From Heliocidaris erythrogramma (taxonomy: Eukaryota; Echinodermata; Echinoidea; Camarodonta; Echinometridae), in contig CM046856.1 of the NCBI GenBank assembly GCA_025617745.1, positions 38,326,092-38,390,091 on the forward strand: a stretch of DNA of 64,000 nt, given 5' to 3'. Positions 9,992 to 37,400 of this stretch are shown here, one piece after another; the stretch's first letter is position 1; every line of letters starts with the position of its first letter. Below the pieces are notes generated by a model. The model saw only the letters and a program-made list of their open reading frames with translations, did not search any database and was not told the origin of the DNA. The position numbers and the translations under genes are program-made.

Positions 9992-11926
9992 AGGTTTGAA
10001 GATTTGGTTAACGTAGGGTATCGACCATGGAGCAGCTGTCGCCGCTGGAGCATGTGTCGAACAACCATTGGTCCAAGGTCTGATTGATACTGTGTAAAAC
10101 CAGAATCTTTTGCTAATTGTAAAATTTCTGTGTTGTTATTCACTAACTTTGTGGCATGAAACTGTCACAAATATGGATCACTTAATTGTGAAGTTGCAAA
10201 AGTCTCTGGTTTTCACAGTAAATGTCTAGAGAAATATGATTTCACTCACATGCTAACATTCCAGACTGGCTCAACTAGGCTTACGCTCATATACTATCAG
10301 TACAAAAAGAAAAGGGAACAACCAGTAATGATTCATTGGTAATTTATATTTGGAAATATATTCTTAAAATATACATATATGTACACACATGCATTTACAA
10401 TGTAATTTTAACAATCATTTACGAGACAGTACATTTGCTTCTGGACGTGAGATACTGAGCAGCTTAAGATGGAATGCTATTATTTGTGGATATTTATAAT
10501 CACAAGTAACACTGCAAATATGAGGAATGAAGAAATTAGGAGTAAATAATATTCCAAATTTTGGAATGCATTACATGTACATTTATATCTCAAAGAAACG
10601 GCAAACACAAGACATTTCTGAAAGTAAGTCAACGTTTTATTCTAGAAAAAATAGCTTCCATCTATAATTTGATCATACTATTTAATTCACATACTGAGTG
10701 TTCACACAGTCTGTTTTTTCATTATAGCTCTGGCAATGCAGAGATATAAACGGGTGCAATACCTAATCAAATTCAATGTTTGAGTTTGTAGTAAAACACT
10801 TAGTTTGCGCACTACAATAAAAGGTTTACAACAGAACTATAAATATCTGTTTTCTGCTTACTACGGATACGTATAAATTAACATCTATAATTTAAAATTG
10901 CTAGTTGTTGGAAAGGAATGTCTAATTATTTCAAAGAAAAATTTGAATTCTGTTGTGATCGCACACTAGAGCCTAATATTTTCCTGCTAAGCATATACAC
11001 ATGCTAAAGAAAAAGATAATAGCGGACCAACCGATATATATAACCACTGCAAAAATCATCACTAATACTAAATATCATTTACGTAATTTTTAACTAGTTT
11101 GTTTATGAACAAAATAAACCTCTTCACAATTATAGCAGCCAAACGGTGGGCAATAAACTTTGAGAAATTATACCATACACACAAGGACATAAAAATACAA
11201 GTTTAACAGCAGAAAAGCAGAGGATAGACCAATGACAATGAAATCACAATACCTTATAATCTTTGAAAACAACTTGGTGCTCATGTACTCTTGGCAATAG
11301 GTATTAAATATTACCTGGTACCTCAAAAAGTACTACATAATGCTTTATGTTCATATCTAAAACATATTTTTACTCCTTGCGATCATATATGAAAAAAACC
11401 CAAACCTGAATCACATGTAAGGCACACATGTTATGTATTGTCCATATTAAATCATTACATCACAGTCGATGCTTATCTCAGTGAATTTTAAACGAACATG
11501 CCAGTTTATCTCAAATGACCTTAATCTGCTCATGCGCAAATCCTAATTACGAACTCGCTTATACCTCATGTTTTCAAGGATCCTCGTCCTCGTCAAATTG
11601 CAACAGACTTTCCCCAAGTGAGACTACATGCACAGCCACAGGAAAATACCTGTGCATTGGTTGAGCATAACTCTCTTTCTGGTCTAACTTTCAAACCAAC
11701 CAGGTTTGAATCTGAGAAGATCTTTTTGATGGTGATATATTACAAATTGTCTGTTGTTCTGACATATTCTTTGGCAACAATTGCTTGCTGCTTTATTTTA
11801 TCAAAGATGCAGGGTTAGGTTTCGGGTTGTAGTAGGAGCTTTACATGTACATGCAGGTATACTGGATAGTATTTGGTCTTGGGCCCTGTTTCATAAAACT
11901 TGTTATGAAAAACAAATACCCCATTT

Positions 11927-13218
11927 GTAAACAAATCTTTCGGCATATTACTCCCAGTGTTAAAGATCGTATGCTCGATCTGTAATGAAAAACACAAGTC
12001 AGAAAAAATTGGAACCAGCGGGATTCGAACCTGTCATCTGCTGCTTCTTCGTTTACTAACCATTGTTCCACGGCGGACCGTTTGAATATTAATGAGTCAG
12101 AAAGAAGAGGATCTTGGGTATTTGATTCTAGTTCGTCGTGACTTGGCCGTGAACCAGAATAGCCTGGTGGTTAAGTCGCTGCCCGGCAAGCAGCAGATGA
12201 CAGGTTCGAATCCCGCTGGTTCCAATTTTTTCTGACTTGTGTTTTTCATTACAGATCGAGCATACGATCTTTAACACTGGGAGTAATATGCCGAAAGATT
12301 TGTTTACAAATTAAAAAATTCCTCCCCAGTCAAGCTTCTTCGTTTACTAACCATTGTTCCACGGCGGACCGTTTGAATATTAATGAGTCAGAAAGAAGAG
12401 GATCTTGGGTATTTGATTCTAGTTCGTCGTGACTTGGCCGTGAACCAGAATAGCCTGGTGGTTAAGTCGCTGCCCGGCAAGCAGCAGATGACAGGTTCGA
12501 ATCCCGCTGGTTCCAATTTTTTCTGACTTGTGTTTTTCATTACAGATCGAGCATACGATCTTTAACACTGGGAGTAATATGCCGAAAGATTTGTTTACAA
12601 ATTAAAAAATTCCTCCCCAGTCAAGCTTCTTCGTTTACTAACCATTGTTCCACGGCGGACCGTTTGAATATTAATGAGTCAGAAAGAAGAGGATCTTGGG
12701 TATTTGATTCTAGTTCGTCGTGACTTGGCCGTGAACCAGAATAGCCTGGTGGTTAAGTCGCTGCCCGGCAAGCAGCAGATGACAGGTTCGAATCCCGCTG
12801 GTTCCAATTTTTTCTGACTTGTGTTTTTCATTACAGATCGAGCATACGATCTTTAACACTGGGAGTAATATGCCGAAAGATTTGTTTACAAATTAAAAAA
12901 TTCCTCCCCAGTCAAGCTTCTTCGTTTACTAACCATTGTTCCACGGCGGACCGTTTGAATATTAATGAGTCAGAAAGAAGAGGATCTTGGGTATTTGATT
13001 CTAGTTCGTCGTGACTTGGCCGTGAACCAGAATAGCCTGGTGGTTAAGTCGCTGCCCGGCAAGCAGCAGATGACAGGTTCGAATCCCGCTGGTTCCAATT
13101 TTTTCTGACTTGTGTTTTTCATTACAGATCGAGCATACGATCTTTAACACTGGGAGTAATATGCCGAAAGATTTGTTTACAAATTAAAAAATTCCTCCCC
13201 AGTCAAGCTTCTTCGTTT
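11927..13218 (+). mobile_element. Insertion of four 291-bp tRNA-like units with 5' inversion
   Basis: The 13-bp AAATACCCCATTT occurs at 11914-11926 and 13219-13231 and once in the empty site of unit 1 (near 9868), so it is a target duplication. The insert starts with 117 nt (11927-12043) that are the exact inverse of part of the unit. Four head-to-tail units that look identical follow (starts 12044, 12335, 12626, 12917), plus an 11-nt stub. Each unit has a tRNA-like box A and box B. This layout suggests reverse transcription of a multimeric or circular RNA. Confidence 0.85.
12151..12223 (+). other. tRNA-Ala-like sequence in the 291-bp unit (4 copies)
   Basis: GAACCAG pairs with CTGGTTC as an acceptor-like stem. 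GCTGC and GCAGC close a 7-nt loop CCGGCAA, reading anticodon GGC with C at position 33. GGTTCGAATCC is a perfect box B. The T-stem is poor, so this is more likely a Pol III promoter of a SINE-like element than a working tRNA. Repeats lie at 12442-12514, 12733-12805 and 13024-13096. Confidence 0.6.
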
Positions 13219-14806
13219 AAATACCCCATTTATATGACAAGTTTGCTCTTAGCCAATCAGATTCAAGGATTTCAGTAGCTTATACATGTAACAATTATTG
13301 TAACTTGTTATTGATAACAAGTGTTATGAAACAGGGTCCAGGTTTGAAGATTTGGTTAACGTAGGGTATCGACCATGGAGCAGCTGTCGCCGCTGGAGCA
13401 TGTGTCGAACAACCATTGGTCCAAGGTCTGATTGATACTGTGTAAAACCAGAATCTTTTGCTAATTGTAAAATTTCTGTGTTGTTATTCACTAACTTTGT
13501 GGCATGAAACTGTCACAAATATGGATCACTTAATTGTGAAGTTGCAAAAGTCTCTGGTTTTCACAGTAAATGTCTAGAGAAATATGATTTCACTCACATG
13601 CTAACATTCCAGACTGGCTTGACTAGGCTTACGCTCATATACTATCAGTACAAAAAGAAAAGGGAACAACCAGTAATGATTCATTGGTAATTTATATTTG
13701 GAAATATATTCTTAAAATATACATATATGTACACACATGCATTTACAATGTAATTTTAACAATCAATTACTAGTACATTTGCTTCTGGACGTGAGATACT
13801 GAGCAGCTTAAGATGGAATGCTATTATTTGTGGATATTTATAATCGGAAGTAACACTGCAAATATGAGGAATGAAGAAATTGGGAGTAAATAATATTCCA
13901 CATTTTGGAATGCATTACATGTACATTTATATCTCAAAGAAACGGCAAACACAAGACATTTCTGAAAGTAAGTCAACGTTTTATTCTAGAAAAAATAGCT
14001 TCCATCTATAATTTGATCATACTATTTAATTCACATACTCAGTGTTCACACAGTCTGTTTTTCATAGCTCTTGCAATGCAGAGATATAAACGGGTGCAAT
14101 ACCTAATCAAATTCAATGTTTGAGTTTGTAGTAAAACACTTAGTTTGCGCACTACAATAAAAGGTTTACAACAGAACTATAAATATTCTCTGTTTTCTGC
14201 TCACTATGGATACATATAAATTAACATCTATAATTTAAAATTGCTAGTTGTTGGAAAGGAATGTCTAATTATTTAAAAGAAAAATTTGAATTCTGTTGTG
14301 ATCGCACACTAGAGCCTAATATTTTCCTGCTAAGCATATACACATGCTAAAGAAAAAGACAATAGCAGACCAACCGATTATATATAACCACTGCAAAAAG
14401 CATCACTAATCTAAATATAATACGTAATTTTTAACTAGTTTGTTTATGAACAAAATAAACCTCTTCACAATTATAGCAGCCAAATGGTGGGCAATAAACT
14501 TTGAGAAATTATACCATACACACAAGGACATAAAAATACAAGTTTAACATATGCAGAAAAGCAAAGGATAGACCAATGACAATGAAATCACAATATCTTA
14601 TAATCTTTGAAAACAACTTGGTGCTCATGTACTCTTGGTAATAGGTACCAAATATTATCTGGTACATCAAAAAGTACTACATAAATGCTTTACGTTCATA
14701 TCTAAAACATATTTTTACTCCTTATTATTTGTGATAAGTGATATGTGAAAAAAACCCAAACCTGAATCACATGTAAGGCACACATGTATGTATCGTCCAT
14801 ATTAAA

Positions 14807-18154: not shown

Positions 18155-21100
18155 CTGATCAAGAAAGAGAACATATAACAAATACTGTATAAATGTTTCT
18201 TTAAATTTGTAAGGGAAAAAATGATTTTCTATCTTGGCTTATCAAATTAGTTTGGCATTTTGATGAATTATGCCTATTTCTATTCCTGGTTATATTCATA
18301 ACATCTTATTGATTAGAATAGAAGTTAGAATATATCTTTCCTTGAGATTTACACCCGAAAGTAAATTTAAGAAATGTGAATTCAGTGAATTTCCAAGGTT
18401 CTATAAAGACTATGTGGACATATTCATAGTGAAGGGCACAAAAAATGTGACATGGAAACAAACTTTAATCTCAACCTGTGAATTAACAGTTTTTGTTTTT
18501 GTATCTCTAAAATAGACAAGTCAGTTAAAGGAAATATCAAAATCTGAGTCAGTGATAAATATTCATTTTCCCCTTTAACGTGTACTTTCAAAATAACTCT
18601 ACACATACTCCCATAGAAAATTCAAAGCAGAACAGAACAACAGCTTCAGCAAAAGTAGTTTGTTCATCAAATAATATTTATATATTTGTGGTCTTAGATT
18701 TATTGCGGATATGCCAATAAAGAAGTTCCTACACGTACCTGTTTTTGAAGATCCGAGACATGATCGACCAGCAGCATCTTATCTCGTCTGAGCTGGGCAT
18801 TTTCCTGCTCTACCCCGCCCTGCCTGCCTTCTAGCTCAGCTAGACGACTCTTGGTGGTGTTATGGCTCAGTGTGTTGTGGGTGTGTCTCTCGTCTTGCTT
18901 GGATAGCTGATTATATAAAATATTCAAAAACAAAATGCACAAGTAAATATTAAAGTTTAATTCTATTTTCATTTTATGATACTAGTTTGTCAGTTCACCA
19001 ACATATTATTTCATCTTTCTTTTACACACACATACATCAATGCAGCCTTAAAAACGAAAACGTTAATTTCTGGTACAGGTGAAAAATCATTTATATTTTT
19101 TCTCATTCTTTTCATTCCCATATGCAGTAAAATCATAGTAGCAATGTCTCCTAAAGAGGACAGCTCTTGAAATGCCCTCATATTCCAAATAGAGTAAAAA
19201 TTTGGACCAAATGCACATGCCACACGTGTCCAATGTACATGTAGTCCCACATATACCCTGATCTGTAATCAGTGTTTTTCAGAGTTTGTGATTTTCACCA
19301 AGATTGAGCCAATTTTGATGATTTCAAATCCTTAAAAATCCTTAAAAATAAACAATTGTTCCTATTTACTACATAAATTCACAGAACTTGTTTCTTTCAA
19401 AATACAATGACATGACCAGTACTCAACCTACTCATTAAGATCTATAATGCCAATGAAATATGTATAAAAAATATATACCACTATATACATTATCAATAAA
19501 TCAGGAATATGAATGTGAAAAATGTATACCTACTTGTTTCATTAGATGTGCTCCTCTTTCTCTCTCCTGTTTGAGGGCTTCCCTAGCCTGATCTAGATCA
19601 AACTTGAGCTGCTTCTCTTTATCCCTGACTGTCACCAGCTCAGTGATGTGTGTGGAGTGACGGGTATCGCGAGACTCTCTTAACATCTTCTCCTGCAAAA
19701 ATAAAATCAAAATTACCATTATATAGTTATCATTATCAATAATCTGGCATGTGCCTGAGAAGAAGAAAAGCAAAATCAATCATAACAACCACCAAGACCA
19801 TGTCTGTCCTGGAATATGGCTTGTACTACGACATCTGCACCAAGCTTGGATTGAAACTCTCAAAATCCTTACTGAGTCATGCGAATGAACAATTACACCC
19901 TCCAAATAAATTGATGGCACCATAATTATTCCTTCTTCTCAATTTTGTTGGTAGGCGAGCAGCCAAACAGACAGCAACATACAAGCAACTGCTTAAGGTA
20001 AGTGTCTTGGAAGAGCTTTTTCTTAAAAGTAAAAGCAACACTGTAAGATTTGTCTGTTTTTTTGTCTAGTGCATAAAATCATCTGAAAATCCATACTAGA
20101 GTACCCTGTTCCAATGCAATTTTTCCCACTCCAAATGTTTGCATTTTCAACATTACTTCTTTAGCTGCTACTTCAAACACTGTCGTGGTACACATGTGTA
20201 GACATGAGTTTGATAATTGAAGATGATATATTGTTGGAAAGGAAAGAGAAATGACATATATTTACCCTGTCTAGTTGTTTCTGTAGTTCCAGTACCTGGG
20301 ATCCCATCAAGGCATTCTCTTTCACAAGATTATTCACATCCTCAGACATCTAAAAATAAAAATCATTCAAATCGGTGAAAAGATAATAAACAGTATCGAA
20401 AAGGAAATTTAAATGGTTTAATGAATGCAAGCATGATGAAAAGATGTGTGTGAAAAGATATTGGTAACTGTGTTCATTTTGAATAAATACCAAGGAACAA
20501 TGACGAAGATGATAACAAAACTTAAGATGAAGAGAAAATGAATTTACTTCGGTCCACTATCTATCAATTTGCTTATTCTTCTCAAATAAGTTATTGCATT
20601 TTTACACAACAGCATGAGTATGCAGAAATTAAGAATAATGACCGATACTGAAGGTACAAAATAATGTTGATCCCCCCAAAAAAATTTTTGTTAGAACTGT
20701 TACACCAGTTCCTCTTAATGACAAGAGTTGTGACATACCTTACTCTTTAGAAATCGATCTTGTTCTGCTTTCATCTCTGTCTCTTTCAGTTTCCTCTGCA
20801 ATTGTCTGATCTCCTCCTATAAACATATATGTAATAAAGAGATATGACATTTAAAAACCGCTGTCTACTTCTGTCAGCAAACTGTTGAAATAAAAGGTGT
20901 TATTTTAAGAGAGATAGAGGAGAGGAGAAGAGGAGGAAGAGGAGAGGAGAAGAGGAGGAAGAGGAGAGGAGAAGAGGAGGAAGAGGAGAGGAGAGAGAAA
21001 AGAGAGAGAGGGGAGAGAGAGAGAGATGGACGGTGGAGGAGGGAGGAAGGGAATGAGGGAGGAGGAGGAAGGGAAAAGGTAGAGGGTGGGAGGAAGTGGG

Positions 21101-24100
21101 GTGGAGTGAAGGAAGGAGACAGAGAGAGAGAGAGAGGGTAAGAAAAAGAGGACAAATGGTGATTTTAAAAAACACTTGAAAAAAGTGATAATTACAAGAA
21201 ATAAAGAATAATACTTGATGATGGAAACAATATGCCTCTTACAAAAGTTTTGTTGAAAAACTGGCAAAACAAACAAATAAAACTACCAAATCTGCGAGGG
21301 CTCTTACCCTAAATTCATCCACAGCTTGATCTTGAATGGAGGCTGTACTGGAGTAATACTTATCCTCTAATTCCTGTAGCTGGGTTTGGGTTTGCAACAA
21401 TTCTGTTCTCTTTTCTTCCAGGGAAAGCTGAGTGGCTCTCAAAGTGTCTGACTTTTGTTGGACCTATAAAAGAAAAATAATAATATCATATATAGTACTT
21501 AATTGAGTACTTGAATGCCTTTTTAATTTTTTTTCCTTCAAACATGAATATTGATATACATGTGTGTTTGTGTGAAGGTACATATAGCTGAGACAAAATA
21601 TCAACAGTGACTAATGACATTCTTAAGTTACATTTTTCTGCAGTAATTGATGCTGTGACTTTATCACAATACAATTTCTTTTTACTAAATATTTAGGTTT
21701 CATCTTTTTGACACTAGAGATACATTTGTAAATCTAAAGTTCCCTTTCTGAGTTGAACTATATAATCTTTCAATATGGCACGAAAAAGAGACATGATAAC
21801 GAAGCTTTTCGACCTGCACTCATCAGGTTATCACGCAGGTATATAACAAATTACTTGAAATCAACTATATTATACTCGATGAACCCGGACGCAACCATCG
21901 AGTATAATATAGTTGATTTCAAGTAATTTGTTATATACCTGCGTGATAACCTGATGAGTGCAGGTCAAAAAGCTTCGTTATTATGTCTCTTTTTCGTGCC
22001 ATATTGAAATTTTGTAGCACCAAGAAATTATTTGTATATAATCTTTCTTTTTAAACAAATTATCTTTTCTTGTAACAAACCCTTATCCCCCAACACCAGT
22101 GACATTCTCTCTTTCCCTCTATTCATAATTACATAGCAATTACTTTGCCATTCCTAATTTATTTTCTCCCCCTTTCTAAACCCCCGTTTATATCAGAAAA
22201 TTTGAGTCTTCTTTTTGACTTTGACATTTCAACTCCTGCATTTTTGCATCAAAACATTCACCCATTTCTGTTTTTTTCATGTATGCCACTTTCCTTTGAC
22301 TCTTCTCCATCTCTTGATCTCACTCCCTTTCCCTCTCCCAAACATGTCTGCATCCATATGAAACAAATATATATTCCAACTCACCTCTGCCTCCAACATT
22401 TGGATTTGATGCTCAGCACTGGACAGAGAGGAGGACCCCTTCTCTAACTCTCCCCTTGCCATGGATATCTGTTGTTCTCTGTCGTGAATCTCACGTTGTA
22501 TCATCTCATTCTGTTTCTTCAGCTGTACCACCTCTTCCACCAGGAGTTTCTTTTCACGATGATGATTATCTAGTAAATATAATATTGTAATTATAATTTG
22601 AATATCATAATTCTATTGCTATAGAAGAGAATTAGAACTATGCTTGTTAACCCCTTCCATGCCAGCAGATTTTTCAGCAATTGTCAAACACAAAGTTTCA
22701 ATAGTAAAATATTAACTTTCAATTTGTTGTTTTCTTGAGCAAACTGTGTAAAGTTACATTGCACAGGAATAAACATTATATTGAAGGCACAGGTTTCTGT
22801 ATGAGGAAGAATTTGCAAGCCATTCTGAGCCTAAACAAAATGGGATTTGCCGCCCACGGCATGGTAGGCGTTAATAGTATACAAGTGAAAAGTAAGTGAG
22901 CTGTCACATAATGATAATGATAATAGTTAAGATTTTTCTGAGGATACAAATTACTGAATATTATTATCATTCTTGCTTCAACCGAGCTACCCTGATAAGA
23001 TGAATTTCCTCCTGCCCATTTACCTCACCTGGGTGGAAAGTGGCAATTTAATAATCATGTCTTGCCATAGGAAATTAGTGCTATGGCCGGAACCATTTGA
23101 CCCACAGTCCAGTGACGTATCAACTAGACCACAACTCTTTTTCATAGTCTGACGTTTTGGATGTCCAGAATGAAATTTGAGGAGGGGGGGGGGTGGGGTG
23201 TGCGTGCACCAAACCCATTCTTACCTGATAGCACCTTGAGCCTCCCATCAAGCCTGTCCTTCTCGGTACTGACCATGTCCAAGTTGGATTCTTTCCTCCT
23301 TACTTCAAGATGGAGGCTGTCCACATCGGATTGGAGCTCCTGAGCAACGTCAAAGTAATCAGAAATTGAATATTGTTGTTATCAACTTATGACTTTTTTT
23401 CAATGCTCCATTCTTGTCTTTTTTCTCACAAAAACCTTAAAACAATTAGCAAACTATCTACAGTGTGTTTCTAAAAAAGGAAACCCAACTTTCTCCAACA
23501 ACATTTTGTCAAATAAACATTTAACTTGATTTATTGTAATTATATATCATAACATGAGAAATTTTATCCCCTTTCATATGCTACCACATTTGTGATGATA
23601 GAGCCTGGGATCCTTGAACTAAAATAATTTTAAACCAGTAATGTAAAAATGGATTTGCGGGATCTATTAACCTACGCAATGAATAACCACTCTGCTTTCT
23701 CAAGCACACACATGCTTGGACAGAAAAGGCGGTCATTTGGAAGGACTTTGGGGCTAATTTTGGACTCGCATCTCATCAAAGGTTGCATACATGAGACATG
23801 TCTTTATCACTTGTTTGGTTTCTTTGTATTGTACCTAATGGAATTACACTTTGCATTACTTCTGTGTGCAAACTAGTTTTGACATCACTCACTTTCATCC
23901 TTTCAAATATACTCATGCATGAAAATATCATTATATATTTGGTATCATATGATAGAGGATGAATTGAACTTTGACATGAATAATAAGAATCAACCTGGAA
24001 ATAAATATTTTTTCTAGTAATTGATGAGAAAAGGTCGCTTTTTTAAAGAAACACACTGTATTTTTTAAATGTGAGCCTGTTCCAACAAATTTAAACTACA

Positions 24101-27100
24101 CCTATTTGATTATTTAGCATGAAGAAAAATCTTGTAAAGTTTGCCTTTCCATTACTAGACATCCTACTCATGGGGTTGTAATTCCGATAGAAATAGTGAT
24201 GTCATAATGGCACTGCTGAGAGTGATGGGATACCCAGTGACCTTGATAACCCCATGAAAGAACTACTTTAACAAGTAACTTTAGTTGCACATTCACCAAG
24301 ATGAACAAAGTGTGTTATATCTTTCTAGGTCCAGCATTTAATTTATACATTTCAAGATCCACATATATGTCATTAATGATTATTTTAATTTGCAGGCATT
24401 ATTCATATACTTATACTGACATATTTCTTAAGCATGAAAAGCAAGATTATTGTTTAAAGGGTAATTCATTACTGATATAAACAGGAAAATATTACATTTT
24501 TAGCCTAGATGTATTTCATACTGTACAAGCCTGTTTGTTAATTACAGATAAATGTTCATAAATTGACAAACAATAAACAATAAATAAAGTATAGCTATAA
24601 ATGTATACCTATAGCTAGATATACATTTAAATCTCATTCTTTTTACAAGTCTTGCCAAGTTCGGCAGGCTGAAGACCCAGTTGCCAATTTGGACAAAGGC
24701 ATACATATTTTACAGTAGTGATTATGCGGGCTATGCTACAAATGATTTTCCAATACCTTTAGTCGGTTGAGCATCTTACTAGCTTCTTGAGTCATCCTTG
24801 GTTGAAGTTCAGTAGCTTTCTTGGCTTGGTCTCGCGTAAAGGGAACAGTCAAGGTCACAACAAGATCACAGCCATTAAAAAAACTACATCTTTAATCCTG
24901 TTCATTGATATGGCCTCATTTTACATACTGCATACTACATGACCACTAACAAGGTGGCCTAAGACAAGCAAAACAATGCATACTTAACGTAACTGGCTAC
25001 TTAAAGCAACCAACTGTATCTCATTACTATTAATTCAGTTGGTAAGAGTCAGCTTGCTTTAATCTTCAGTGGTTGAATTATGACCCCCTCCCCCCACTCA
25101 CAAATATGCGAACCTCGCACTCCGTACCTTAAGAATTGTCTCCCATAGCAAGTGTGTAATCTCCAGCATATATGGGTGCTGTAAAGGAGCAAGATCACCG
25201 GCCAAAAACAGCCTGAAAATTTCACTTGATCAAGATGATAAAGATCCTATTGAAGAATCTGGAATGGAATCAGATATTCCATATCATCCTAAAATGTAGA
25301 AGGAAGTATTTTCTCACAATTTTACTGATTATATTTGTGTTTTTACCTCTTCATCTTATAAATCGTGACTGCCGCCAAAATCCCGACATACCGGTAGTGA
25401 CGGTTCCATGAATGCCCTCCCCCTAAAAAGATTGACACGAGTAACAACAGTAGTTCTACAAGAGTAATCAAAGTTCAGGGCCGGGGTATACCTCGTTCTT
25501 TTCTTTTGGAAACAGTGGTAAATGATGCTAGTAAACTGAACCATATTATGGCACTTCAAAATTCTACACAACATCACACCATACCTTCTATCATAGAATA
25601 TTATTACTATCTCTATATTTATACCTCATTAGGATACAAGTATGAAGCGGGTAATGTTTGTTCGAAGTTACCATGCATAAATAGCAGAACTATGAGAGAA
25701 TAATTTGAGCGATGTGCAAATCATTCACAACTGTATACCCAAATATTATATATCTTACTTATATTCACAATAATGTCTTGACTGGTTCTTATATCATTAA
25801 AGGATATAGAAAATTGGCTTCCAGCTCCAGAAAGTAGATCTGTTGCTGCAGGTTCTTTATGTATTCTGCTTCTAGATTGTCATAGTCAGGTGCCTTGGTA
25901 GATTTCCTATAAGTTAAAAAAAAAATATATACTTCAGAATTCCTGTACTTGTAACATTATAGAAAATTTTTACTATTACATGTAGCTTACTCTCTTGTCA
26001 TTCTCGGAGATCTAATAAAGTGTTTTCTGTGTTCATTTCTCCTGACCTTGCAAATAATTTTTTTTAGCTCTGTCTGAATAACATAATGAGTAAAACTACA
26101 ATCACAACAATAAAAGCTGGATGACCTCAAATACAAACTCATGCAGATTTTTTTTTTGGGGGGGGGGGGGGGGTGGAGAGGGGAAGAGACAGGAATTTCA
26201 GAAAAAAAGGATACTGAACAAACAATATTAGTAGGAGAAGAAAAAAAGTTAAGAAAAACATTTTTCATGACAGGACTATTGTTTTGTTTTGTTTTATTGT
26301 TGTTTTTACGTAATGGACCACCACATTGCTCCAGCTGTATAACGTGACATCCTTTTTCATGATCAAATTCGGTAACTTTTACCTATTATTTGTAATTCAG
26401 ACAATTTCATATTGCTTGTTTTGTAATGACCATCATATTAAGTTGGAAAGAAATTTGATCATCAAAAAAATCAATGGGGCATACATTGTTCCTGAGCCAG
26501 TTCCAAAATTGGCAGCAATGTTGGCGGATGATCGTTTTGTCAGACTACCCATGCTGCCACTTCGTCGTAGAGTCGAGCCTCCTGTACCTGTTCCTGAAAA
26601 ACTGGGTCCTGTAGTCAAGAGAATAGGAATAATCAACAAGAGTTTTTCACCAATTCCAATACACTTTCTTTCTCTGTTTTAACATTGTATTAAATAAGCG
26701 CCAAGGGTGGGTTATATACCCAAGGGTTACTTAAATAAAGGAAAATACCGGACGACTTTGAGGTATGATCTGTGATGGAGTTTATTACCATGGCCAAGAG
26801 GGCGACGCCAGGTGGCGCTACTTCACTTCACATTTGTAGAATCATATCACACAATAACATACTGGCGTGACTGCCTAGTTCTTTCCCTTCTCTTCATGAC
26901 ATAACAATACACCGTATGATTTGCATAAAATCGGTTCACAAACTTAACGGCTACATAACCACAGGTGTAAAAACTCTGTAAACCAAAAAAAAATATATGC
27001 ATAATATTTGGTCTCAGCATGACACATGAAACTACAACACTATTAAAGAAGAATAACCACGTCCATAAACATGCGGAAGGATACAAATATAATCTACTAT

Positions 27101-28223
27101 AAACTCAATCGCCAAGGGTGGATTACATGTAAATACCCAAGGGTTACTTAAATAAAGGAAAATACCGGACGACTTTGAGGTATGATCTGCGATGGAGTTT
27201 ATTACCATGGCCAAGAGGGCGACGCCAGGTGGCGCTACTTCACTTCATATTTGTAGAATCATATCACACAATAACAACATTATGGCGAGGAAGAAGGATA
27301 ATTTCTGTGACTGTGGATTTGACACTTGTCTGATTTGTCATGCCTGGCTTGCTAGATGCCTGGTCCTCCAGACTAAAAGTTACACCCTATGAGATCAGAC
27401 AATGTCGGTCTCGTGGTTTGTCGGTCTACTGTACTGGGATGACCCCAGTCCTCCATACTCCTCGTCATGCTTGTGGAATTTTAACTGGCATGACTGGATT
27501 TTTTTTCTGCTGCCTTTTTTTGGCTTTGAGTTTGACTTTTGAGCATGCGTTGGGTCAGGGACAGGTGGCAAATCATTCCATGCTTAGAACTTCGTCTTAG
27601 TCAGTTTGGACATTTGTCATTTAATAGATCTATAGTCATTTAACATCAAGTCATCAGTGCTAATTAATTGGTGTAAATTTTATGGTCTACAGGTCTAGGG
27701 CCTACTCTTCATAAATATCCGACATAGAAGAAGACCTCTGACAATGCGCCCCCCCCTCCCCTCCCCCACCTCCCCGCCCCCCGCCCCCACCTCCCCGCCC
27801 CCCGCCCCACCTCATCCTCACTTTTACTCGGATCACATGTCCACCACAGTCGAGACGCATTTTCATGTTTATTCAATCTGACTGTGGCGGTCCTGCATGG
27901 TATCCTGGAATCTGTACCTTTCTAACTAAAAGTTAGACCCACGGATCAACAAATAAAGTATAAGTGAAAAGAGCAATTTAGCAAGGCAACAATAGTCAAA
28001 ATTGACTAGTTTGCCTATTTTAAAACAACAACAACTGACTCACACAGACATGACAATTGACATTGACAGACAGACACAGTGAGTGTTTGACTGGGTTATT
28101 TTTCAAATGACAACATGAATGACTTTTTATGAGCTCAAATGACACAATTATCTATCATTAGAATTATAGTTTGCTATAGTTTATACCTCTCGAAGACCTC
28201 GTTGGACTTTTGAATCTGGCCAT
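17951..28223 (-). CDS. Coiled-coil protein, 495 aa, 12 exons
   Basis: Twelve minus-strand exons join with matching phases into 1488 nt. Order from the start: 28187-28223, 26485-26608, 25808-25906, 24757-24835, 23225-23339, 22385-22569, 21308-21463, 20739-20816, 20266-20349, 19534-19692, 18739-18906, 17951-18154. Residues 1-55 are basic and Ser/Gly-rich (MARFKSPTRSSRG, TLRRSGSMGSLTKRSS). Residues from about 58 onward are almost continuous heptad-type coiled coil, starting NLEAEYIKNLQQQIYFLELE. The protein ends SVTPEYS. There is no signal peptide or membrane segment. A cytoskeletal, centrosomal or ciliary scaffold role is likely from composition only; I could not name the ortholog. It is divergently paired with VPS11. 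Confidence 0.88.
18739..18906 (-). CDS. Coiled-coil gene exon 11
   Basis: Acceptor tataatcag, donor gtacgt, 56 codons in phase 0, containing SRLAELEGRQGGVEQENAQL. Confidence 0.88.
19534..19692 (-). CDS. Coiled-coil gene exon 10
   Basis: Acceptor tttttgcag, donor gtaggt, 53 codons in phase 0, containing VRDKEKQLKFDLDQAREALK. Confidence 0.88.
20266..20349 (-). CDS. Coiled-coil gene exon 9
   Basis: Acceptor atttttag, donor gtaaat, 28 codons in phase 0 (MSEDVNNLVKENALMGSQ onward). Confidence 0.85.
20739..20816 (-). CDS. Coiled-coil gene exon 8
   Basis: Acceptor gtttatag, donor gtatgt, 26 codons in phase 0 (EEIRQLQRKLKETEMK onward). Too short to stand out as an ORF. Confidence 0.85.
20905..21140. 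repeat. GA-rich low-complexity tract
   Basis: GAGGA/GAGAGA repeats in the intron between coiled-coil exons 7 and 8. Ser/Leu/Pro-rich ORFs across it are artefacts. Confidence 0.9.
21308..21463 (-). CDS. Coiled-coil gene exon 7
   Basis: Acceptor cttttatag, donor gtaaga, 52 codons in phase 0, from VQQKSDTLRA to AVDEFR. Confidence 0.88.
21772..22034 (-). mobile_element. Palindromic insertion with hammerhead-like motifs and 13-bp target duplication
   Basis: TATATAATCTTTC occurs at 21759-21771 and 22035-22047, bounding the insert. Arms 21768-21881 and 21896-22009 are near-perfect inverted copies (114 bp each, 14-nt spacer). A 25-nt unpaired tail follows on the right (22010-22034). Each arm contains a hammerhead-like core; only the left-arm copy (minus strand) is intact. 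It lies in the intron between coiled-coil exons 6 and 7. The architecture resembles Penelope-like or retrozyme-like retroelements. Confidence 0.75.
21795..21832 (-). ncRNA. Putative type I hammerhead ribozyme
   Basis: Read on the minus strand in order: GATAAC, core CTGATGA, GTGCAGGTC, core GAAA, AGCTT, C, GTTATC. GATAAC/GTTATC form a 6-bp stem I. The A15.1-U16.1 pair and a 2-bp stem III with palindromic AAGCTT match the minimal-stem-III, dimer-type hammerheads reported in Penelope-like elements. Predicted cleavage is after TTC. Weakness: helix II (GTGCAGGTC) can make only about one canonical pair. The right-arm copy (plus, 21945-21982) has AAAA instead of GAAA. Confidence 0.55.
22385..22569 (-). 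CDS. Coiled-coil gene exon 6
   Basis: Acceptor tttactag, donor gtgagt. It encodes HHREKKLLVEEVVQLKKQ onward to QIQMLEAE, strongly coiled coil. Confidence 0.88.
23225..23339 (-). CDS. Coiled-coil gene exon 5
   Basis: Acceptor gttgctcag, donor gtaaga. It starts ELQSDVDSLHLEVRRKE and ends in phase 1. Confidence 0.88.
24757..24835 (-). CDS. Coiled-coil gene exon 4 (starts at an AC acceptor)
   Basis: It begins after CCCTTTAC, with CCTTGAC, a U12 branch-site match, 13 nt earlier. It reads RDQAKKATELQPRMTQEASK through NRLK, then donor gtattg. The join to exon 3 keeps the frame (ANFL-RDQ). Confidence 0.85.
25808..25906 (-). CDS. Coiled-coil gene exon 3 (ends at a U12 AT-AC donor)
   Basis: Acceptor acttatag. 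It encodes KSTKAPDYDNLEAEYIKNLQ onward to LELEANF plus two bases. No GT is available before the in-frame stop, but ATATCCTTT, the U12 AT-AC donor consensus, directly follows. Confidence 0.85.
26485..26608 (-). CDS. Coiled-coil gene exon 2
   Basis: Acceptor gactacag, donor gtatgc. It encodes the Ser/Thr/Gly-rich segment containing STLRRSGSMGSLTKRSS. It ends in phase 2. Confidence 0.8.
26699..27276. mobile_element. Small element with terminal direct repeats (TRIM-like)
   Basis: 26699-26859 and 27110-27276 are direct repeats, both from CGCCAAGGGTGG to CACACAATAACA, about 95% alike, around 250 bp of unrelated sequence. Terminal direct repeats with a short non-coding middle fit a terminal-repeat retrotransposon in miniature, though no primer site was identified. 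A local tandem duplication is the alternative. It lies in intron 1 of the coiled-coil gene. Confidence 0.5.
27745..27818 (-). repeat. C-rich tract, G-quadruplex-prone on the minus strand
   Basis: Runs of four to eight C separated by T, A or G and a CCACCTCCCCGCCCCCCGCC block repeated twice. The G-rich strand is the sense strand of the coiled-coil gene (its intron 1). Confidence 0.75.
28187..28223 (-). CDS. Coiled-coil gene exon 1
   Basis: ATG at 28223-28221 reads MARFKSPTRSSR plus one base, then donor gtataa. Phase 1 at the end fits the GA start of exon 2 to make glycine. The start was chosen because it is the only in-frame ATG close upstream with a usable donor. Confidence 0.75.
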
Positions 28224-28396
28224 ACTTGAAATAGACGTCATATTTAGAGAGAATTACAAAAAATTAAAGCAGAAAAATGTTATTCTCCAGCTGAAAGCGT
28301 TACTGGCAACGCGAATCCAAGGAGGGGTCAAAGGTCAAAATTTGTGGGAGGGACTGATTTGCTCGATCACGGATTGGCGACGTCTAAGCTTGGAAA
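28224..28396. promoter_or_regulatory. Shared bidirectional promoter region
   Basis: Only 173 bp separate the start codons of the coiled-coil gene (minus) and VPS11 (plus). The interval holds a CRE/ATF-like GACGTCA near 28233-28241, a second GACGTC near 28379 and an inverted CCAAT (ATTGG) near 28372. No TATA box is evident for VPS11. Confidence 0.6.
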
Positions 28397-28411
28397 ATGG
28401 CCTTTCTGCAG
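28397..28411 (+). CDS. VPS11: VPS11 exon 1 (MAFLQ)
   Basis: ATGGCCTTTCTGCAG followed by donor gtaatt. The five residues are the expected VPS11 start and join exon 2 (WRRF) in phase 0. Chosen over an ATG at 37053 that lacks family similarity. Confidence 0.85.
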
Positions 28412-31400
28412 GTAATTCTGATTTTCTGATTAAATTTTACTTTTTGTTTAACTTTATGGTTCATCATGCCCAATAAACAGGGTTCTTTGTATGTGGAGAA
28501 CGATATCTTTATGTTAATAAGATTTCACTTCAGTCCCATTCGTGTAAAATTGTGTAGGTTATCAGGGAATGTGTACGTATTGGTTTGTACACAAATTGGC
28601 TAGAGTGCCCAAGTCTGCGCAGTGCCCACATCAGCAAGCAATGGTCATATTGACCATTAGAATCATATACATGTGTGTATACTGGGTATTGGGGATACAG
28701 ATGTAATTTTGTTTGAAATTGATGTTTTTGTGGGCAAACTGATACTTAAGTATCATTCTTTAGATTTTAAGTTATCAGTTCGTTAAGATACAAAATGTAG
28801 AAAGTTATAAAAACTTACATTTACAGCCCTCTTTTTGGTACTTGTTACCCACATCTCCATACGGATCACGACTGCTCTCAATAATGTTGCGCACTAGTGA
28901 GGCCGCTCTACATGGTTACGCACCGTAGATACGTACGCAGAATGTTACGCACACAAGCTATTCTACGAAGACCTGCAAGGGGCAAACTGACGACGTAAAA
29001 AAATAAAAAATATTACGTACGTACGTAGTAATTATTACGTACGTACGTAATATTTTTTCTTTTTTTACGTCGTCAGTTTGGCCCTTTCAGGTCTTCGTAG
29101 GAGATCGACGAACCCATCGCGCCGGTACTACTACGAGCGCTGAGGGCTCCCTTCATCATAATCGTGAAAAATACAAACTGGATGCTGACGGGACAGTCTC
29201 GATAGCAGTTATCGACAAAAAGGACCCAAAATTTCAGGAAACCCTCTTCAAAGGTCACAAAACAACCTGGTAAGTTTTAATCATCTATTATTCAATATAA
29301 TTCTTTGGATGTAAGTAAAATGTAATATATTATATTCAATTAAATATAGCCAAAAATGCACAGTGATGCAGTTTAGGTATGGGATGTGTGTTGGCTGCGT
29401 TACTACACAGTCGGCAATGGCGTGTACCTATGAGTGGCAGTGCCCATGTCTGCGCACACGCGTAACTGCGCGATTAGTTTAGTTTAGTTTAGTTTATTTA
29501 TTCATCTTTCTTTAACATTTTACATAAATACATTGCCTTTAGGTACATAGAAACACAACAATTTGTGATACAGAATTTTTCAAAAAGATACACAAGTATT
29601 AGTTCAAGTAAAGAAAGACGAGGAGACCTTGGTAAAAAGCAAAGCTTGTAGTAGTAAGCACTCACGGGTACATTACTGTAAAATAGTTGGTATTTTCTGT
29701 CGCATGTACTAAAGGTATGGGGGGAAAAATAAGATAAATATTTTAAATACTTGCTTTCAAATTCAGCCCGTAAAAATCTCACTCCTACCTCAAATGGCCG
29801 TTAGGAAGAACTTTTGATATTTACAGCAAAATCCAAAGTCAAAATCTTGTCCAAAACCGGAGAAATCCCCGCCGATTTGTTTCGCGATCGCGTGTTGTTT
29901 ACAAACTGCCGATGTCTTAGACTAAAATCGGCCAATATAATTTTTGTCCACGAAGAAACTCGGGATCGCAAGGGCACATCGATCTTTACGATCGCGCACA
30001 CAGAAAATCGGAACTTTTCCGTGTACGCTATAGGGACCGAATTTTTGAGGACAAAACTCTTTTGGGGAGATGTCAGCGCCCGCGGCGACCAGGAAATGTA
30101 CACAATGACTCCGATAGCTCGTTTCGCGAGAATCAACAGAAAATTACGGATTTCATTTTTGTAAATATCTTTTCCAACATTGGTGAGTTGAATTTATTGT
30201 ATTTCTTGGATATTTTGGGGTCGGTTTTTGAAAATTAAATGCCGATTTTGAGTGAATATTGGTGACTTTTGTGCAGTGGTGTTTTAAAAAGATGAGGTGT
30301 ATGACTGCCTACATTATACACACGAAGTATAGGAATGTAGCTATGAGTGGTAGTAAGGTCTCCTCAGCACAGGTATTACGAAGTAGTTACATAGCAAAAG
30401 ATAAATTATACTTAATTAATTCCTAATCTAGGTAAGTAAAACACAGAGGGTAAATACAAGTTGTAAAATAAGTCAAAAAAATATACAGTATATACATGAG
30501 GTGAGGGTATAGGGGAGGGCTTTACATAACAAGACGAGATAGTATGAGAGGGGAAAAAAGAGAAGGGGGAAAGATACATTCAAGAAGGAAAGGATACAGA
30601 AAACTGACGGGTACACCACACGACAAAAACAAGAAACAGAGGGATTAAAGGCAATATGTGGACAAGAAAAAAGAAAAAAAAAAAAAAAAAAAAAGAAATT
30701 TACATTTAAATGTTACAACCGTACCCTATGAGTCATGGTAATTATTTAAAAGATAACCCTTAAGTTTATGCTTAAATACAGATTGGCTAACAGAGTGCTT
30801 AATATTAGCGTCAAGGGAGTTCCAGAATCTAGGACCAGTGCAGAACAGTGTATTAAAAGTAAACGTTGTCCTTACATGGGGCAGATGATATGCAGAACTC
30901 CAGAAGCATTTCGTGTAGCATGGTGACGAACTTGGCTATTTGTTCTAAATATACTGGCCAGAGCCAGTGGCAGAACATCAGCATTCAAGTCAAACATGAG
31001 AGTCCCAAGTTGGAAATGATAAATATCTTCCAATTTTAAGATCCTATGGCTATGAAAAAGTGGGTTAGTATGCTCACGAAAATTTACATTACAAATAATC
31101 CTCAACGCTCTTTTTTGAATCAAATATATCTTTTCAAGATGAGTTTTAAGTGAATTACCCGATGCAAGGACACCGTAATTGAGATAAGGAAGGATTAATG
31201 TTGAATACATAATAAGAAGAATGTCCTGAGGAAATGAAGATTTCAGTTTATGAATGACACCGGTATTTTTAGATAACACTTTACAAAGATGATTGATATG
31301 TACTTTCCAACTTAGTTGCTCATCAATGTATAGGCCAAGGAATTTTGTGGATGTTACTCTATCGACTAAAGCATTATTGAAAGTTACATTTCCTGGAAGC

Positions 31401-34400
31401 ACTTTAACTTTGTTACTGAAAAGCATGAAGTTTGTCTTTTGCAGGTTTAACGACAATTTATTTGCTTGAATCCACATGGTTATTTTACATAGCTCTGAAT
31501 TGACTGTTTCTAAAAGAGTCTGAGGATTCTTATGCGAGTAATACAAACTAGAATCATCAGCAAATAAAATGAAAGACAATATATCAGACGAGAAGTGGAA
31601 ATCATTAATATATATAATAAACAAGAGAGGGCCAAGAAGTGATCCCTGAGGAACGCCACATGTGACATTCCGTAGCCCCGAGTCAAAACCGTTCAAAGAA
31701 ACAAATTGTGTTCTTTCAGCTAAATAACTCTTGAACCAGTCCAGCGCTGTCCCCCTGATACCATAATGTGCTAATTTGCCAAGTAAAATTTTATGATCGA
31801 CCGTATCAAAAGCCTTGGAATAATCGAGAAATATACCAATTGTGTGCATCTTCTTATCTATGGCTTGCGAGATCTTATCAATAAAGTGCAGCAAGGCATG
31901 TGACGTGTGTTTTTCTCGAAACCCAAACTGAAAATGTGAAAAGATGTTACACTTTTTTAAAAATTTAACTGTTCTGACATAAATCATTTTCTCAAGTATC
32001 TTTGAAAAGGAGGTCAAGAGAGAAATAGGACGGTAATTGGACAACAATTGTGGATCCCCTTTCTTAAAAACAGGCACAACTTTTGCAATTTTCATGTCTG
32101 AGGGGACAACTCCATTTGACAAAGATAAATTAAAAATGTGAATTAGTGGTTGTACAACCGCTAAGACAATCAGCTGAAGCAAGTCATTGTTGACACTGTC
32201 ATAGCCAGGGCTTTTACCTTTTTTCAGGGAGTTCACAATTGCAAGCAGCTCTTCTCTAAGTACTGGTGCAAGAAATAAACTGTTCTCATTTGGTTCTCTC
32301 AAAAAATTATCATATAACGTGGAGAAGGTTTACGGTTCACCATGTGTGTTGGTAGGAGGAAAGGGAAAAGGAAATTAGAGATGGATAGACGAGAAAGGAT
32401 GACAAGAGAGAAAAGAAGAAATAATCTTTCGTGACAATGGGTGAAGTCCTGAAAAGGACTGTAGACCAGATGAGATGAGATGAGAAGACTTGGTTGATGA
32501 TCGGTGGATGAGCAGCGATGGATAGAGTAGCGAAGGTTGAGTAGATGAGGCTTGAGTAGGAGGTTACTCGACGTTTCGGACAGGTTGACTGTCCGTTGAC
32601 TGTCCGTCACCACTCCTGATGACGGACAGTCAACATGTCCGAAACGTCGAGTAACCTCCTACTCAAGCCTCATCTACTCAACCTTCGCTACTCTATCCAT
32701 CGCTGCTCATCCACCGATCATCAACCAAGTCTTCTCATCTCATCTCATCTGGTCTACAGTCCTTTTCAGGACTTCACCCATTGTCACGAAAGATTATTTC
32801 TTCTTTTCTCTCTTGTCATCCTTTCTCGTCTATCCATCTCTAATTTCCTTTTCCCTTTCCTCCTACCAACACACATGGTGAACCGTAAACCTTCTCCACG
32901 TTATAAGCTCCACCATGCAAACCTTCAAAGATCATCAAATTATCATATGTTTGTTGACAGTTTGGCACTGCCTTTGACAGATTTGGACCAATACTACAAA
33001 AATATTCATTGAATTTCTCCACAATGACATTCTTATCTTCCACTACACGACCATCAATTTTGATGGTCTTTACATTGATTTTTTTCCCCTTTGAATTAAA
33101 TACATTTTTTATCACTTTCCATGTTCCTTTAATATCATTACAAGTGGCTTGGAACTGGGAGAAAAAATAACCTTTCTTCGCAACACGTAGCACTGAAGTG
33201 AGAGTATTTCTATAATCAGTATATTTTTTTGGTGATAATTCTGACCCACTGATTTTATATGCATAATACAACTTATTTTTCTTATTAATTGACTTTAACA
33301 AAGCAGCATTAATCCATGGCATACGAGGAGTTTTCTTGCGATCTTTACCGTTACGCTTCACAATTGGTACATTATCATTATAAAATAACATGAATTTATT
33401 ACAAAATGCATTAAAAGAATTATTAACATCATTTTCATGTAAGACCTCACTCCAGTCTGTTGCCATAAGAACTTCTCTAAACTTTGCAATGTTTTTAGGA
33501 TTACTCTTACGAACATATTTATATTCATGATTGTAAGGGTTATTGCGTAAGTTCACCCTCGTAAAAATAGGAAAATGGTCAGAGATATCCGATACAATAA
33601 TCCCTGAAGATGGAAATGGTTGCATATTGCAGAATATGTTGTCAATAAGAGTAGAGGAAGTTTCAGTAATTCTCGTTGGCTTGATAATTAATGGCATTAA
33701 AGAAAAAGACAACATCAAGTTTAAAAAAGCATCAATACGTTCGTTTTCATCACACTGGAGCAAGTTTGCATTGTAATCACCCAACAAAAATACTGTCTTA
33801 TTAACAAGAATTGGGTTTAACAAAATTGTCTGTAGTTCATTTACTACAAGGTCAAGATTACTCTGCAGGGGCCTGTATACGACACCAAATATTACATTCT
33901 TTTTCCCTGGAATAAAACACTCCACAAAAATAGTCTCTAAATGGTCAGACATTACATTTCATTCACTCCGTACTCGATAATCTATTCCGTCTGGAATGTA
34001 TAAGGCAACACCACCTCCTCTCTTATCAAGCCGGTGATTAGACTCTAAACTATAATCACGAATTGAATATAAACTAACATCACCATCACTTGAGAACCAT
34101 GTCTCAGTGACTCCAATGACTGTAGAATTTACTTTGTCATTTCTCGTTAGGGCATTAAGAGAGTCAAAATTTTTATGCATACTTCTAATATTTAGGTGTA
34201 AAACAGTAAGTTGGTTTTCATGACCACTTTGATATTCATCAATGAATTGGTTTTCAGTATAATAGTTACAGACAATAGGAGAAACGTCATCAAGATCCAC
34301 ACCACCATTAAGGTCTAGTGTTGTAGCATTTCTTTCAAAAAAATTGATTGCTTCTTGCGCAATATTAGTCATTATTAATTTCAAATCCAAGCCCAAAAGT

Positions 34401-37400
34401 GATGTTTAACAGTATAGAATACATGTAATTTATGTTGCCAGCAAACATATAGACACATACACGGGGGTTAAATATATACATAGCACAACCGTGCACAGAA
34501 AAAACAATGAAAACATAATATAGAATGTCAAAAGATGACTTCATGAAGGCTAAAAAAATCATCAAGAGAAAGGAAAAAAAAAAAAACTAAATGAAAAAGT
34601 CACAGAATCAACAACAGAGAAAAATAACAAAAGCAATAATTATGAAAGTTACACAAACAACGAAAAACAAAACAAAACACGCATCGAACACAAACATTTC
34701 ATATTTATCATAGCAATAGGTATTCATGCAAAAAACGAGTCAAAATATTGAAATAGGTCTTATTTCATGCATTTCATTCACAAGCCTCAAAATGTTGCTG
34801 TTCACGTCAAAACTCCCGAACTGCGTGTAAAATGAATGAGTGCGCAGACATGGGCACCATTGGTTTTTTCAATGTTGAAATGACACGGCCGCCGTTTCTT
34901 GCCGTAAATGGCATTGTTCTTACTCTAATTTTGAGGACAATTTTTGCAAACTTACTCTTTAGAATATCAAGAATAATATAACATTAAGCTTTAGAGGAAT
35001 ATTAAAAAATATTTGTGTGAATTTCAGGTCAAATCCTTAGGTGCGCAGACATAGGGCTCCCCATCATACACAAATTTGAGAATGAGATCACATCAGCAAG
35101 ATTGACCATTAGGATCATATACATGTGTGTATACTGGGTATTGGGGATACAGATGTAATTTTGTTTGAAATTGAGGTTTTTGTGGGCAAACTGATACTTA
35201 AGTATCACTCTTTAGATTTTACGTTATAAGTTCGTGTTCGTTAAGATACAAAACATGACAAAATGTAGAAAGTTATAAAAACTTACATTTACAGCCTTGT
35301 TTTTCGTACTTGTTACCCACACCTCCATACGGATGACGACTGCTCTCAATATGTTGCGCACTAGTGAGGCCGCTCTACATGGTTACGCACCATAGATACG
35401 TACGCAGAATGTTACGCACACAAGCTATTCTACGAAGACCTGCAAGGGGCAAACTGACGACGTAAAAAAATAAAAAATATTACGTACGTACGTAGTAATT
35501 ATTACGTACGTACGTAATATTTTTTCTTTTTTTACGTCGTCAGTTTGGCCCTTTCAGGTCTTCGTAGGAGATCGACGAACCCATCGCGCCGGTACTACTA
35601 CGAGCGCTGAGGGCTCCCTTCATCATAATCGTGAAAAATACAAACTGGATGCTGACGGGACAGTCTCGATAGGAGTTATCGACAAAAAGTACCCAAAATT
35701 TCAGGAAACCCTCTTCAAAGGTCACAAAACAAACTGCTAAGTTTTAATCATCTATTATTCAACATAAGTATTTAGATTTAAGTAAACTGCAATATATGAG
35801 TTTCACTTAAATATAGCCAAAAATGCACAGTGATGCAGTTTAGGTATGGGATGTGTGTTGGCTGCATTCCTACACAGTTGGCAATGGCGTGTACCTATGA
35901 GTGAATGAGATGAGACTTATGTCATGAGGATAGAATTAAGTTAAATATGGAATGTCTTATTCATGGTGTGTGTTGTTGTTGTTGGTTGGTTTGATGGTGA
36001 TTTCCATTGGTGATTAGATGATTTTCGCCAGGGCCCAGGCAGTATGAGAGGGCGTTGTATCGAATGAATAAAAAAGTTAAATAAAAGAAAAAAAACAAAA
36101 AAATCGGCAGTTGTGATGAGGATTTTCTTACCTTGTAGTTCGTATATACAAGTTAATAAAAACCTGATCTCACCTGCCGATTTTTAAATGTTTTTTTCCT
36201 TTTTTATTCATTCGATTTTTACAATTTTAGTAGACTGGTAGAGCCTGGAAGGTAACCCCTTCAGCATGTTTAGCAAACTCTAAAGTAGACCGAAAAATCA
36301 GTCTATTTCGTTCGGGGATATGCTCCGCTGAGACTACGTCTGGCTTCGCGGAATCCCTCTCCTAAATAGACCGAAGTCTGCCCCAGCCACTCCCGCCCGG
36401 TCCATCGCTATGTGCTTTCCTATGGTGCTACAATTTTCGGCTCATCGCGGACGAGCTATACACCCTTGTGCATTACTTTTGCTTTGACCAAAGTTTGATT
36501 AAAATATTATAAATACCACATCACATAAAATCACCAGCTCTACTCATACTTACATGAAAATAAAAAAAACTTGCAATCGGAGAATTATACGTACGTTTTC
36601 AATAATTCTTTGGCGAAAAAATGCGATAGAAATGTCACAAACGATCTTTTCTCAGTGCTGGTCTCTCGAAAACCCGATTGCCAATCACCATTGCGCACGC
36701 GCAGTAGTGCTTCTACATGAGAGAAAAGATCGTTCGCGATCGTCCGCGATATAATATTCTCGCCTTTTTTTCATCGGAAAATATTCAAATCGTAAAATTC
36801 ATCCCCCTTCACGCAAATTTATGATATTTTATTGCATTTTAAGTAAGGTTTGTGAGATTTTCTTACGTGGTATTTGTAATATTTTTACCGAAATACGATG
36901 AAACAACAAATTTATTTATTTATTAGCTTTGACTGCGTTTGAGTCAGGAGCTCCACAGCTAAGCTGGGACCTACGTACGCGTACGCGCGCGTGTGCGTTC
37001 ACTACATTAGTATTCCGTTTGCCTCAATTCATTTGCTATAACCCCGCTGCATATGACAACATGTCACAATGAGGTTAATTTTGGATTAAATTTGGATTAT
37101 TTCAAAATTCAGGTGAGCGTACTATATTTAGTATACATTAGTTTTACTATATAAGTTAATTTATGTCGATCTACGACTTCTAATTAGTAATAAACGTGTA
37201 GGGTGAGATACCTCATACTTTTGGCCATAGACCTAGTGGTTAAGGCCTGCGGAGAGGTACTCGACTACGGTGACTATGGGAGGCTTCCGTCTATCTTGGA
37301 GGAGAGCCTCGAAAGTCAAAAATTGTTATAAAACTCCTCCAAACAGACAGATTTTTCTGTCTAACTCTGAAGGTGGTTTGCATGGCTCACAGTATGTGGG

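Follow-up and report, generated by a model that had tools for sequence, protein, structure and literature searches.

What kind of mobile DNA leaves a near-perfect palindrome inside a LINE, with a short unpaired tail on one side only and a hammerhead motif at its centre, and how is such a palindrome made? The question is raised by positions 32316-32936 of the window, by which we mean the whole 64-kb stretch of DNA that was analysed. The palindrome is very probably what a retrotransposon of the Penelope type (a Penelope-like element, PLE) left behind as a broken insertion, that is, a head-to-head pair of its pseudo-LTRs (pLTRs). This kind of insertion is already known, and the sister copies of the one described here record how such insertions form.

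The insert and its element

The features needed for the argument are listed below. Unit positions are counted along the pLTR, with position 1 at window position 32606.

30872-33958, minus strand: host LINE, split by the insert, with an RVT_1 match in 30872-32329
32304-32315: left copy of the target duplication, AAATTATCATAT, 12 bp
32316-32936: insert of 621 bp that interrupts the LINE, delimited by repeat and target-duplication comparison
32316-32596, minus strand: left pLTR copy, inverted, with a tailless outer end at unit position about 300
32597-32621: inner joint between the arms, with a short additional repeat of TTGACTGTCC
32606-32905, plus strand: right pLTR copy in sense orientation, unit positions 1-300
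32612-32652, plus strand: predicted type I hammerhead motif, from a descriptor search
32906-32936, plus strand: tail of 31 unpaired nucleotides, holding the probable ATG of the PLE ORF at 32915 (MQTFKDH)
32937-32948: right copy of the target duplication, AAATTATCATAT, 12 bp
21759-22047: another head-to-head insert, with a duplication of 13 bp, a tail on one side and a hammerhead-like motif on the minus strand

The arms (32313-32596 and 32622-32905) are 284 nt each with 25 nt between them, and their letters 32313-32315 are also part of the target duplication. They differ at a single place, unit position 30 (window 32635, partner 32583). An earlier reading made from the sequence alone had described a palindromic insert of this size within a LINE, with a one-sided tail and a 12-bp duplication, and that description stands. 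The host LINE ORF at 30872-32329 matches RVT_1 in Pfam (E 7.1e-33); for its 372-aa ORF at 32840-33958 no Pfam family was found at E 0.001.

The genome searched is a 1.06-Gb assembly of 26 contigs, in which the window lies in contig C4. In several other loci the arm is located directly 3' of ORFs that carry RYVDDTFVIW and GVYKIPCDCGKVYIGETG. Two ORF pieces beside the pLTR match RVT_1 in Pfam, and the GIY-YIG motif GVYKIPCDCGKVYIGETG is present in several of these ORFs. The GIY-YIG family of Pfam was matched by one of the six ORF pieces searched (E 0.001) and by the related protein P0002 (E 0.00029), with scores of 19.7 and 21.5 bits that fall below the curated cut-off of 22.6; the other five pieces gave no match to it. 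Judged by these motifs, the family encodes a PLE-type reverse transcriptase and a putative GIY-YIG motif, the latter by a weak Pfam match. The element has 3721 protein relatives, the best being sea-urchin proteins (Lytechinus, Strongylocentrotus) with 76-77% identity. The tail reads MQTFKDH, while P0002 from S. purpuratus starts with MQTFKHH and P0008 from L. pictus with MQTFKQH. A match of seven residues has no significance alone (E 0.43 for P0008); what argues for the tail being the start of the PLE ORF is that its residues fall exactly at residue 1 of the PLE proteins. The pLTRs of the family are arranged in direct or inverted orientation, as those of PLEs are. There is no PLE ORF within the 64-kb window, and none of the loci read is a complete copy in which the 5' pLTR continues into its own ORF. 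We hold with considerable confidence that the insert stems from a PLE of the Penelope/Poseidon type, lacks an ORF and consists of two head-to-head pLTRs.

Head-to-head pLTRs, tails, short duplications and pLTR hammerheads are among the PLE traits given in the accessible parts of three papers (PMC3846280, PMC11167929, PMC7761336). As described in such parts of the first two, Penelope/Poseidon elements like Pen2a of Adineta vaga, Poseidon PAc of Anolis and Penelope of Drosophila virilis share with the present family an ORF with GIY-YIG and reverse transcriptase, head-to-head pLTRs, a tail of 30-40 bp on one pLTR (31 bp in Pen2a), short target duplications and a hammerhead in the pLTR or at the ORF start. 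The present family differs from them in that 266 nt separate the predicted hammerhead cut from the ORF start downstream of it. Most of its duplications measure 12-13 bp, whereas the Adineta examples shown in the available part of PMC3846280 have 8-10 bp.

Outer ends and inner joints

The left arm, which as a query is free of the tail, was compared with the genome and 40 of 1155 candidates were scored. There are at least 54 arm matches in the genome, all covered by the loci fetched, which amount to 39 distinct loci. The best-scoring copies are about 99% alike, so that overall identity between the two arms of an insertion does not tell whether they had a common template; only linked polymorphisms help. 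The 3' ends of full copies cluster at unit positions 296-304 (tailless) and 325-331 (tailed); both L008 and L044 reach 331 in the arm alignment. With up to three mismatches allowed, the genome has 528 junctions of pLTR and tail, against 0 for the reversed control, a number large enough to be tested statistically with no work at the bench.

By BLAST, head-to-head pairs were found at 22 of the 39 arm-found loci. All but one of them have one tailed and one tailless end, and each of these 21 heterotypic pairs has a target duplication of 8-14 bp. No pair without any tail occurs among the 22, and the sole tail/tail pair (L032) has no duplication. The other 17 loci were surveyed with short end motifs, for inverted ends and duplications only, since such motifs are crude for the 3' ends of single copies. 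This survey gave one extra pair, L010, which is heterotypic, with a tailed arm of 11 nt and a 12-bp duplication. The arm-found total is therefore 23 pairs, 22 of them heterotypic and all 22 with a target duplication; for 16 of the 39 distinct loci no inverted partner was found. If the two ends were chosen independently and equally, 21 heterotypic pairs out of 21 would have a probability of 4.8e-7. Two loci (L016 and L038) have duplications of 12 and 14 letters but one pLTR end each, and two starts are therefore not obligatory.

A further sample was taken by means of the tail: the first 8 of the 528 junction places that lie outside the arm-found loci. It holds five pairs, of which four are independent (L062 and L063 have common flanks), all heterotypic and with duplications of 12-14 bp; being drawn by the tail, it cannot reveal tailless pairs. 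L063 was omitted from the pair counts for its flanks, and so were L043 and L061, where the second inverted piece ends at unit positions 34 and 70, which is neither of the two sites. L062 and L063 lie about 161 kb apart on contig C1 and hold the same insertion in the same flanks, through either a segmental duplication or a duplicate in the assembly. That one of the two inverted pLTRs may optionally carry a tail has already been stated, in the part of PMC3846280 that is available; the strictness of the one-tail rule is what is added here.

The inner ends behave differently from one copy to the next. The 15 inner joints that were printed all differ, six with 1-7 letters common to both arms and nine with letters in between, so every palindrome arose separately from pLTR RNA. 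Heterotypic pairs were compared in 25 cases (21 arm-found and four tail-selected, without L010): the tailed arm is at least 20 nt shorter at its inner end in 12 of them, and the tailless arm is shorter by as much in 4. In those 12 pairs neither arm could have served as template for the other, which implies two starts of reverse transcription. The arms are nevertheless related in origin. They are concordant at two linked polymorphic sites in all 11 pairs that span both (29 to 21 in the population) and at a third polymorphic site in 18 of 18 pairs (46 to 11 in the population). At a single-letter indel 8 of 10 pairs are concordant, the discordant ones being L017, with a deletion there, and L022, with no deletion. 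Concordance at the three polymorphic sites points to both cDNAs coming from one RNA or one source locus.

The hammerhead and the 5' ends of the arms

The predicted hammerhead at 32612-32652 has a stem I of ACTC/GAGT, a stem II of GGACA/TGTCC with an extra C in front and a self-complementary stem III, ACGT. With what we take to be the numbering of the core, the predicted cut falls between 32648 and 32649. The motif is in the right half only, as the left arm ends before CTGATGA. Its bare core (CTGANGA..GAAA) occurs 8 times in the window against 7.09 expected, which is not significant. When stems I and III are required, two matches are left in 64 kb, one per palindromic insert, against 0.1 per shuffle in 60 shuffles; when stem II is required as well, only 32612-32652 remains and none is found in the 60 shuffles. 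Rfam reported no hammerhead in the whole window at the gathering score and none in 21000-34000 at E up to 10. By the descriptor search, which finds all three stems, the motif has the core and stems of a type I hammerhead, and in this respect the earlier proposal of such a hammerhead at the centre of the insert is borne out. All 32 arms that span the region agree except at unit position 30; the arms compared are the best-scoring copies, and hence this conservation proves nothing. We also considered whether the ATG created by the A at 32635 is an ORF start and rejected it, as C occupies this position in the 31 remaining arms that span it and the ORF start is in the tail.

Minimal type I hammerheads of PLEs are reportedly the subject of work by Cervera and de la Pena in 2014 and Lunse et al. 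in 2017. The motif predicted here is like them in its short stems I and II and in a stem III without a loop, which would need a dimer; it is unlike them in the extra C between core and stem II that the family has.

Does the predicted cut leave a trace in the genome? In two of the eight tail-selected loci (L061 and L066) the end of an arm coincides with unit position 44, the base that directly follows the predicted cut. We counted 5' ends genome-wide as places where four upstream letters are all unlike the pLTR and 19 downstream letters all match it. There are 25 such places at position 44, against 0 at 40, 2 at 45, 0 at 48 and 4 at 53. The count at 40 is lowered by two fast-mutating CpG sites in its stretch, and the four places at 53 have two contexts, one of which resembles a small deletion. 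The 25 places at 44 have 10 upstream contexts, two of them contributed by L061. One context accounts for 11 of the 25; L066, L072 and L073, which are of this kind, have common flanks and represent one amplified insertion, of which the remaining places with this context are presumably copies too. The insertion in L066 was copied as part of a larger repeat, and at its inner joint there is a 20-nt filler that resembles part of the nearby flank. Of the 25 places, six were read: at L069 a single arm starts at 44 against unrelated DNA, in L068, L070 and L071 an inverted arm is joined to an arm that starts at 44, and L072 and L073 are the amplified locus. No pair found by its arm has an inner end at 44, and most arms read extend beyond the cut, so that cleavage would be partial at best. 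That 5' ends peak where the cut is predicted suggests that cleaved RNA probably serves as a template and that the built-in hammerhead really cuts RNA in the animal.

Possible routes to the palindrome

A single scheme could account for these observations. The enzyme of the element would cut both strands of the target, and each target 3' end would act as a separate primer for reverse transcription, at a site within pLTR RNA that comes from a single source. The start at the distal site would leave the tail; the other, about 31 nt upstream, would be tailless. Both cDNAs would run towards the 5' end of the RNA and then be joined together, often at a few common letters; where the RNA had already been cut by the hammerhead, the cDNA would run off at the cut. 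We give an even chance to a coordinated pair of starts at two RNA sites separated by about 31 nt, the RNA having sometimes been cut by the hammerhead beforehand. If this is right, the genomic 5' ends are footprints that self-cleavage by the hammerhead has left in vivo in an animal retrotransposon. In twin priming of L1, two target-primed cDNAs of opposite orientation are joined at microhomology. The scheme would resemble it in its opposed target-primed cDNAs joined at microhomology, and would differ in that both starts lie at two preferred internal RNA sites. In Anolis, according to the accessible part of PMC11167929, initiation occurs at 111-118 bp and the tail is the stretch between two initiation sites. 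When our tail is aligned with the Anolis protein P0116, probably from the element used in that study, its end falls near nt 118 of the Anolis ORF. An open literature search of partial depth found no report of the one-tail rule or of 5' ends at the cut, which is weak evidence of novelty.

Other routes can be suggested for the palindrome. The accessible part of PMC3846280 proposes for rotifer Penelope that the template folds back and copies itself. The near-perfect arms and the palindromes at some joints agree with such self-priming in the same PLE, yet a copy made in this way would have a tail on both ends, and where the tailed arm is the shorter by at least 20 nt neither arm could be a copy of its partner without later loss. 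Self-priming is thus refuted for those 12 pairs, while for nearly equal arms, such as those of the window copy at 32316-32936, it could hold; as a general explanation we consider it improbable. The one-tail rule and the pair geometry argue for two coordinated initiations instead. Still less probable is an animal non-LTR retrozyme that spreads via circular RNA. The insert is like these, as the available part of PMC7229834 describes them, in being small and non-coding with a type I hammerhead, and some 5' ends do lie at the cut; however, no tandem hammerhead-to-hammerhead monomers occur among the copies read, the sequence is that of a PLE pLTR, and many arms pass the cut into sequence common to PLE 3' ends. 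The sequence-only reading had favoured a hammerhead foldback family that moves as a palindrome, with two palindromic inserts bearing hammerhead motifs and duplications in one window as its basis. Against this, inner joints vary between copies, no inverted partner was found at the 16 loci mentioned, and the arm is part of a coding PLE, so we think it the least credible of these routes. Nor were fixed terminal inverted repeats with short duplications of fixed length seen: arm lengths vary, outer ends differ and duplications range over 8-14 bp. An inverted-repeat DNA transposon moved as a unit was rejected because the family has two unequal outer ends and variable inner joints. The earlier interpretation is partly supported, then, in that the palindrome is a mobile-element insertion, and not of a DNA transposon.

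The role of the hammerhead is a separate matter. The peak at 44 may instead come from a polymerase stop, from microhomology or from a few loci copied in larger repeats. The weight of the 11-place context and the common flanks of its three loci fit this, as do four of the ten contexts, in which AG directly precedes GAG and the joint may lie at microhomology. Six contexts are then left, though, and the adjacent positions 40 and 45 show no comparable count; a polymerase stop at folded stem I was rejected as the cause, since it is expected at 48, where the count is 0. We think such an origin without cleavage unlikely, if a serious contender, and the peak argues for a ribozyme acting on the template RNA. 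The Anolis hammerhead is dispensable in vitro and no RNA-seq ends lie at its cut, according to the part of PMC11167929 available, and this counts against reading the 5' ends as footprints.

The second insert of the window, at 21.8 kb, does have the architecture noticed before (inverted arms, a one-sided tail, a duplication and a hammerhead motif with stems I and III). Its hammerhead-like motif has a longer stem I, a self-complementary stem III and no 4-bp stem II. The two inserts do not belong to a single mobile foldback family, as had been supposed: the window's 30 longest inverted self-matches include no cross-match between them, each has its own genomic copies, and with differing joints the palindrome is not the mobile unit. 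Nine loci besides the window copy were picked for the 21.8-kb family with a query that includes the tail. Together with the window copy they give 7 heterotypic pairs out of 7 and three single arms; a locus that reaches no tail on either side (C14:16827741-16827959) is outside the seven counted. No ORF was found for this family, so its PLE membership is judged from architecture, which makes it look like another family of this type. Rfam microRNA matches at 21.8 and 29 kb were rejected and read as just long hairpins.

Other repeats were seen in the window. A remnant of an LTR retrotransposon at 1852-5450, on the minus strand, includes an ORF (2514-4388) that holds RNase H and integrase domains. 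At 12043-13219 a 291-bp unit is repeated four times with no mismatch, and a 124-nt stretch of it is found in inverted orientation immediately upstream (11923-12046). A 138-nt palindrome whose self-complementarity is 94% is present in two copies, 28963-29100 and 35430-35567, at a distance of 6.5 kb.
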